DNA of 51,159 nucleotides from Sulfurimonadaceae bacterium (GTDB lineage: Bacteria > Campylobacterota > Campylobacteria > Campylobacterales > Sulfurimonadaceae): the NCBI GenBank assembly GCA_016744905.1, contig JADGDM010000012.1, forward strand, positions 1-51,159, read 5' to 3'. This document shows positions 36,149-43,022 of the stretch, one piece after another. The position numbers and the translations under genes are program-made. Below the pieces are notes generated by a model. That model ran no database searches. It was given only the letters and a program-made list of their open reading frames with translations, and was not told where the DNA came from. How positions within the stretch are numbered: position 1 is the first letter of the stretch; each line of letters opens with the position of its first letter.

Positions 36149-36376
36149 ATGGCTAAATTAGATGAGATTAAAGAATTTATAGGATTTTTAAAAGCAATAT
36201 TCATCATGCTGGCGGTAATAAATACCTCTTTGATTGCATGGGTTTTTAAAAGTTTTAATACTGAACTAGAATTTAAACTTTATATTGTCAATGGTTTAAT
36301 AGTTTTTATTAGTATTGCGATAGCCTTACTTTTTTTAAAAATATTAAAAGAAATCAAAAAGTTAAAGGATTTGTAA
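36149..36376 (+). CDS. Small two-helix membrane protein
   Basis: A 75-residue protein with two hydrophobic helices (about 12-33 and 42-64), a short polar loop and a lysine-rich tail (KILKEIKKLKDL). I recognise no named family. It is 27 bases after recR, but a TATAAT box just upstream suggests its own, possibly leaderless, transcript. A second, even smaller membrane protein begins 1 base after its stop, so the two are probably produced together, as in some toxin, holin-like or regulatory microprotein pairs; nothing in the sequence decides between these. Confidence 0.7.
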   Translation: MAKLDEIKEFIGFLKAIFIMLAVINTSLIAWVFKSFNTELEFKLYIVNGLIVFISIAIALLFLKILKEIKKLKDL

Positions 36377-36536: not shown

Positions 36537-37368
36537 CTACCCATCACACTGTGTATCACTTTGGTTGACTATATAAAGTTTTTGTCTTTTTATATAAAAT
36601 TTATTATCTACCCCTTTTGCAACTAAGACTATATATCCTGTAAAATATCCACTTCTATTATTCTTAAATTATTTTCGAGGAAGTCTCTTCTTGGATGATT
36701 AAAGACAGCTATAGTCGAGTACTCATTGGTATCTTGCAAGATAGCGTACGAAGTTAATTCTATCTTTGAGCTTATTTTTAATGTGGCTCCTGAAGATCCA
36801 GAACCAATACATTTTCCATCTGACATATCATAGCTTTCTGGAAATTCAAGATTTAGATGTTTCTCAATAGGAGTTATACTTCCATATAAATTTTTTATTG
36901 CACTATCAATAGACTTGCTTTCCCATATATGAGGATTTGTTTTATGATAATTTATAGAAGACTCACTAGTTTTTTTTAAGCTTAATTGAGAATTTATTCC
37001 TTGATAATTTTTGATTTTCACTTTTAATTCAATTCGTTCGTTGTGATTGTCTGTGGCTGAGAGTATAAGTGTATCTCCAAATCCTTGGTATTTGTAGTTA
37101 AACTTAATAACCGGTTTTTTAGATAGGTATTGATTGCTTGACATATCAAAGACAATATGATTATTGACACGAGCTGTCATCTTAGTAACAAATTTAGCAT
37201 TTTTTTGTCACCCGTAGTCTTTATTGCCTGAAAATAGGTGATCATAGGGTGTTTGAGTAGAAACTTTGCATAGATATAATCACCTTTTTGTTTGGCTTTA
37301 AACTTCCCCGAGTCAAATGAAAAAAGCTGTGTTGTAAGAATAAAAAGTAATATTATCATTTTAATCAT
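36537..37368 (-). pseudogene. Broken exported SoxZ-SoxY fusion (thiosulfate carrier type)
   Basis: Three frame pieces together spell a sulfur-carrier protein. Piece 1 (37368 to about 37207) has a signal peptide and SoxZ start: KGDYIYAKFLLKHPMITYF. A one-base shift at a run of seven A (37200-37206) leads to piece 2, which completes SoxZ (KKNAKFVTKMTARVNNHIVF, LSKKPVIKFNYKY) and enters a SoxY-like domain (SAIKNLYGSITPIEKHLNLE, ELTSYAILQDTNEYSTIAVF). A second one-base shift near 36629-36665 leads to piece 3 (YIVLVAKGVDNKFYIKRQ), ending QCDG with a Cys third from the end, where SoxY has its sulfur-carrying GGCGG arm. Domain order Z then Y is the reverse of the known fused SoxYZ-like carriers. No other sox gene is in the window. 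Read as separate genes the pieces would look hypothetical. Confidence 0.75.
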
Positions 37369-42521: not shown

Positions 42522-43022
42522 TGATTACCTCGATTTCTCATATCTTCTAAATCCTCAATATTAGCACTTACTGCGTCAATATAACTGACTGCAGATTCTC
42601 TTGATAACAGTTTTTTGGAGAGTCGCATATCAATACGTTTAAAAGATTTTCTAGCTCTTCTAAATTACGATACCTATTGAGTCCATTATTTTCTGCCAAC
42701 AAAGATACTAACCGTTTCGCATCAGTAGGTAAGTCATTTGAACGTTTTATGGCTTGTTGGTTAAAGGTGTCAATAAATAATCATAGGTCAAATCAATAAT
42801 GACAGGTTTCAACAAGCCTTTTTCTCTCAATCGAGACTTACTTTTAGAGACAGTTTTATGAGTATCAGTAAATGAATCAATGGTTATATGTGTTTTTATC
42901 GCTCTTCTCATATCATCACTCGTACTGTCCCATAATTTACCTTTTAAAGGATCTGCTAAATAATTTCCAATTTGAAAATCGATTTTTAGTTCAGATAAAA
43001 ATACGTGTGCGAGCCAGTTCAT
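42515..43022 (-). pseudogene. acpH: Decayed acyl carrier protein phosphodiesterase (AcpH family)
   Basis: Three frames together give an AcpH/DUF479 protein, which in intact form removes the phosphopantetheine arm from acyl carrier protein. Piece 1 (43022 to about 42772): MNWLAHVFLSE, IGNYLADPLKG, THITIDSFTD, VIIDLTYDYLL. Piece 2 (about 42765 to 42651): FNQQAIKRSNDLPTDAKRLV, RYRNLEELE. Piece 3 (about 42650 to 42515): KSFKRIDMRLSKKLLSRES and NIEDLED. The joins are at 42766-42772 and at the T-run 42647-42650. About 15-20 residues usual after the DYLL region are missing at the first join, and the usual C-terminal FFPEL-type end is absent. Deletion plus shifts argue for real decay, not a read error. 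Confidence 0.75.

Follow-up and report, generated by a model that had tools for sequence, protein, structure and literature searches.

A single-chain SoxZ-SoxY carrier gene spread over three frames in a Sulfurimonadaceae genome, probably a remnant, and its intact relatives

Two neighbouring short open reading frames of a Sulfurimonadaceae genome (GCA_016744905.1), both taken as hypothetical genes, raise the question of whether they are parts of one gene, a fusion of the Sox carrier proteins SoxZ and SoxY, and, if they are, whether this gene is dead, misread in the assembly or recoded. In the following, the window is the whole stretch of DNA analysed (51,159 nucleotides, contig C92). It belongs to a genome of 3.0 Mb in 122 contigs that is 99.99% complete (G000, here called the source genome). 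Among named genomes, its SdhA is best matched (87%) by that of a MAG labelled Helicobacteraceae, with Sulfurimonas and Sulfurimonadaceae MAGs next, which places the host in Campylobacterota and probably in Sulfurimonadaceae.

One reading over three frames

The gene occupies positions 37368-36537 of the minus strand. The first ORF (37368-37177, minus strand, 63 aa) has a hydrophobic N-terminus, and the segment of the gene that it contains (segment 1, 37202..37368, minus strand) comprises a Sec-like signal peptide (MIKMIILLFILTTQLFSFDS) followed by the N-terminal part of SoxZ. The frame first breaks at a run of seven A on the minus strand (37206-37200), with a net shift of -1; past this run, what is left of the ORF, as far as 37177, is out of frame. 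Segment 2 (36654..37200, minus strand) lies inside the second ORF (37180-36629, minus strand, 183 aa) and comprises the C-terminal part of SoxZ, a linker and most of SoxY. The second break, again net -1, falls within 36654..36662 (minus strand) and outside any long homopolymer. Its exact base is uncertain; alignments with two intact fusions (those of genomes G201 and G034) and with stand-alone SoxY span it. Segment 3 (36537..36653, minus strand) supplies the C-terminal strand and the arm of SoxY, and is read in a third frame (36653-36537) that is absent from the ORF list. Its tail, ...NQSDTQCDG*, places a Cys third from the end, downstream of the frame break. The glycines that precede this Cys in GGCGG are not kept in QCDG, and the SoxY half carries about nine extra residues close to the domain start. 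The first-pass annotation had described a SoxZ-SoxY fusion over three frames with this signal peptide, these two kinds of break site and this C-terminal Cys, and its coordinates and anatomy are correct.

To identify the domains, we used SoxZ and SoxY profiles built from stand-alone proteins of relatives (47 SoxZ and 47 SoxY, with the window sequence excluded). The three pieces match consecutive profile positions in the correct order, each piece on its own. Segment 1 matches SoxZ positions 7-45 (30.0 bits), segment 2 matches SoxZ positions 41-105 (56.8 bits) and SoxY positions 30-123 (53.0 bits), and segment 3 matches SoxY positions 128-150 (12.1 bits, compared to at most 2.6 bits for 200 shuffles of the same piece). 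As the first-pass annotation had expected of the merged translation, SoxY is matched beyond the first shift. With these profiles, every other stop-to-stop piece of the region stays at or below 5.0 bits.

With the public models, the joined reading scores 63.6 bits against Pfam SoxZ (PF08770) and passes its cut-off of 25, with the halves apart scoring 17.8 and 25.3 bits; against TIGR04490 (SoxZ equivalog) it scores 64.3, under the cut-off of 76. Pfam SoxY (PF13501) gives no match to the joined reading at E 0.1, and TIGR04488 (SoxY) gives 15.2 bits, short of its cut-off of 125. The relatives' SoxY profile gives 73.3 bits, and residues 129-264 are 36% identical to a SoxY of G006 (E 1.4e-14). Since Pfam SoxY and TIGR04488 miss their thresholds, the SoxY half is divergent and detectable only by the relatives' profiles or by direct matches. 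A sequence search of solved structures yielded no meaningful match, plasmid and phage records yielded none, and no relative was found in the named genomes scanned with the joined protein. The alignment of the fusions offered no stretch of sufficient conservation for such a scan. We conclude that the joined reading is SoxZ followed by SoxY in one chain.

Intact Z-then-Y fusions and the known carriers

The first-pass annotation had staked its reading beforehand on the existence of fused homologues. In a search of 228 genomes of the family, the source genome included, intact SoxZ-SoxY fusions were found in the source genome and in at least six of the 227 other genomes; these counts are of the matches listed and are lower bounds. 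Among the matches listed, Z-then-Y open frames occur in G034, G042 (two), G054, G106, G201 and G183, and two lie on contig C114 of the source genome. A third fusion of the source genome is apparently split across the ends of contigs C15 and C114, and we infer that these contigs are adjacent in the genome. Among 397 high-quality genomes sampled across the class, the source genome was the only one in which Z-Y fusions were recognised.

The closest of the matches listed, that of G201, is colinear with the window reading over residues 2-263 (E 1.4e-21) and the fusion of G034 over residues 21-260 (E 4.6e-12), and both span the two breaks. The linker just after SoxZ is alike in G201 and the window reading (KIKSSKGIN and KIKNYQGIN, respectively). 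The identity of the intact fusions to the window reading is only 19-28%. The features by which we propose to delimit the Z-Y group, that is SoxZ then SoxY, one chain and a Sec-like signal peptide, are all present in the window reading. The other Z-Y fusions, including those on C114 and C15, have the same order and, where the start is known, a Sec-like signal peptide. In trees of the SoxZ and SoxY halves, the fusions form long branches; the SoxZ-half tree is compatible with one origin of the fusions (90/88), and the SoxY-half tree does not resolve the origin.

Whereas the window reading has a Cys in its tail, most of its relatives do not. Cys tails are found in two intact fusions (G106 ...GGGCSG and G034 ...TCDGS). 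Tails without Cys end both C114 members (AVAGGN in C114a, SLAGTNI in C114b), the member split over C15 and C114 (GGSEG), the fusions of G054 (GGGEV) and G042 (GGGGV and AGRNMGG) and that of G201; the G183 fusion has no recognisable arm. Extra domains occur in the fusions of G034 (ankyrin repeats), G054 (cytochrome c), G201 (Sel1 repeats) and G042. A metallohydrolase adjoins the fusions of G054, G042 and C114 of the source genome, and the metallohydrolases of G054 and the source genome are related to TIGR04558/TIGR04559.

Individual loci show further architectures. The G034 protein (L036:423-3473, plus strand, contig C49) has 1016 aa, with a propeller-like part and the ankyrin repeats ahead of its C-terminal SoxZ-SoxY. 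The source genome probably has three Z-Y fusions in tandem (L042:6142-8185 and L041:3-758, both minus strand), split at the C15/C114 contig ends. Two of them carry an additional N-terminal domain, all three lack the Cys, and a SoxH-like metallohydrolase lies next to them. In G053 (L082:239-2191, minus strand, contig C214), a 650-aa protein has an N-terminal SoxY domain with an internal GGCDG, and its Cys arm would not be at the free end; on reading its sequence, the part after SoxY has a von Willebrand A or YfbK-like look.

Compared to SoxYZ of Sox thiosulfate oxidation (PF13501/TIGR04488; PF08770/TIGR04490), the window reading has both domains and, past the second break, a Cys third from the end, but it is fused in the order Z-Y, its tail is QCDG and not GGCGG or GGCEG, and a twin-arginine signal peptide is absent, with a Sec-like one in its place. 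A twin-arginine motif is present in 46 of the 47 stand-alone SoxY and in none of the nine fusion N-termini examined, all nine of which are hydrophobic and Sec-like. For instance, the stand-alone SoxY of the source genome starts with MERRNFL and ends in GGCEG. The switch from twin-arginine to Sec-like suggests that the fusion took over from co-export of SoxZ and SoxY.

The quinoprotein dehydrogenase-associated SoxYZ-like carrier (TIGR04557) is likewise a single chain with both domains, and some of the relatives' Z-Y fusions also resemble it in adjoining a SoxH-like metallohydrolase. However, its order is Y-Z, with SoxY aligned at model positions 9-113 and SoxZ at 137-226, which bears out the earlier claim that the order in the window is the reverse of that in the described fused carrier. 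The window reading scores 36.4 bits against this model, below the cut-off of 140, and only its SoxZ half is matched.

Decay, misreading or recoding

We infer that the gene is probably a dead copy, the remnant of a single-chain Sox carrier with SoxZ N-terminal and SoxY C-terminal. In our judgement, a pseudogene is the most likely explanation of the frame breaks, sequencing error comes second and programmed recoding is unlikely. The GC content is 0.293 in the gene and 0.363 in the window, and the first-position GC is 0.35 in segments 1 and 2, lower than in every intact gene tested (0.41-0.58). The log2 odds per codon are 0.225, 0.121 and -0.079 in the three joined frames (the last with the stop included), compared to -0.87 to -1.33 in other frames and 0.136-0.419 in intact genes. 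As codon use in the joined frames is still coding-like, the decay, if real, is recent.

A second gene of the window is broken as well. At a distance of 5 kb, acpH (PF04336, acyl carrier protein phosphodiesterase; 42747-43022, onward to about 42570, minus strand) is spread over two or more frames, perhaps three, with matches to positions 1-86 and 106-147 of the ACP_PD model, and is a probable second pseudogene. Inspection of the ORFs revealed no further broken genes in the window, and the large genes are open. With the breaks confined to two genes, we judge decay to be likelier than scattered error, which is a judgement and not a computed probability. At the loci of the neighbouring dynamin-like gene in 18 relatives, some of which are cut by contig ends, there is no Sox match. 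None of the genomes compared, of which G000 alone is of its genus, offers a sufficiently close ortholog for a test of selection. Like the broken gene, a very AT-rich 75-aa membrane-protein-like ORF of no confident family (36149-36376, plus strand, GC 0.24) lies between recR and the dynamin-like pair.

Alternatively, the gene might be intact and the assembly might have lost one base per site by a sequencing or assembly error, which we regard as rather unlikely. Both breaks are net -1, the segments retain coding-like codon use, and the first break lies in a homopolymer, the A run, where a single-base loss is most plausible. However, the second site lies outside a long homopolymer, and nearly all of the 44 A/T runs of at least seven in the window are without an evident break. 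Furthermore, the large surrounding genes are open, some over 667-1009 codons, and the breaks cluster in soxZ-soxY and acpH only.

The first-pass annotation had also suggested that slippage or phase variation at the seven-A run could restore the frame, and this part of it found no support. That the full protein is made by programmed frameshifting, transcriptional slippage or phase variation is very improbable, because the site (C AAA AAA A) is no canonical X XXY YYZ slippery heptamer in frame and because the second break would be left unrepaired and demand a second event. In addition, runs of this length are common in the window, and the intact homologues use a single frame. Pseudogene decay accounts better for both shifts. 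Lastly, it is scarcely credible that the 63-aa and 183-aa proteins are separately made and functional, since, although each is an ORF with an ATG, the break falls in the middle of the SoxZ domain, the second ORF begins within SoxZ and lacks a signal peptide, and neither ORF matches a profile in its out-of-frame end.

Proposed function and the Z-Y family

Taking decay as the preferred explanation for the window copy, we turn to what an intact protein might do. It would carry its own Sec-type signal peptide for export to the periplasm, and the C-terminal arm of its SoxY half would be free, with a Cys to which sulfur could bind. Oxidation of the bound sulfur might fall to partners like SoxCD, and its release to a hydrolase of the SoxB or SoxH kind. 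As SoxY is placed last, the arm stays at the free end, which is impossible in a Y-then-Z fusion; the described fused Sox carriers have SoxY first, so that their arm cannot sit there. On contig C74 of the source genome, soxC scores over its cut-off and lies close to soxY and soxZ. There is no match to SoxA in the source genome (6 of the 12 genomes searched together have one over the cut-off) and no SoxB over the cut-off. A Sox set of SoxCDYZ only is also listed for two Sulfurimonas strains (PMC7952632), and in Sulfurovum, SoxH2 has been proposed to free sulfate from SoxY2Z2 (PMC10045233).

Fused SoxYZ has been reported in lucinid symbionts and Alphaproteobacteria (compare the SoxYZ-S2/S4 fusions; PMC11237559). 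We recognised no Z-then-Y fusion in the open-licence literature searched, which is not proof of absence. The reverse-order fusion family is rare and little noticed, and is a variant of the known fused Sox carriers.

We tentatively propose that the Z-Y fusions are distinct single-chain Sox-like carriers of a sulfur-oxidising family of Campylobacterota, exported by Sec and not by Tat. In some of them, the sulfur-binding Cys may still sit on a free C-terminal arm; others, having lost it, may work in a different role together with a SoxH-like metallohydrolase. On this view, the window would hold a Cys-bearing member that was broken recently or is misread. Alone, the window copy is of small import, but it shows that members get lost and it points to the Z-Y family. 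What role a Sox carrier has without its sulfur-binding residue is a question posed by the members that lack the Cys and lie next to SoxH-like hydrolases. A Z-then-Y chain with a free arm would give a one-gene carrier, which is directly testable.
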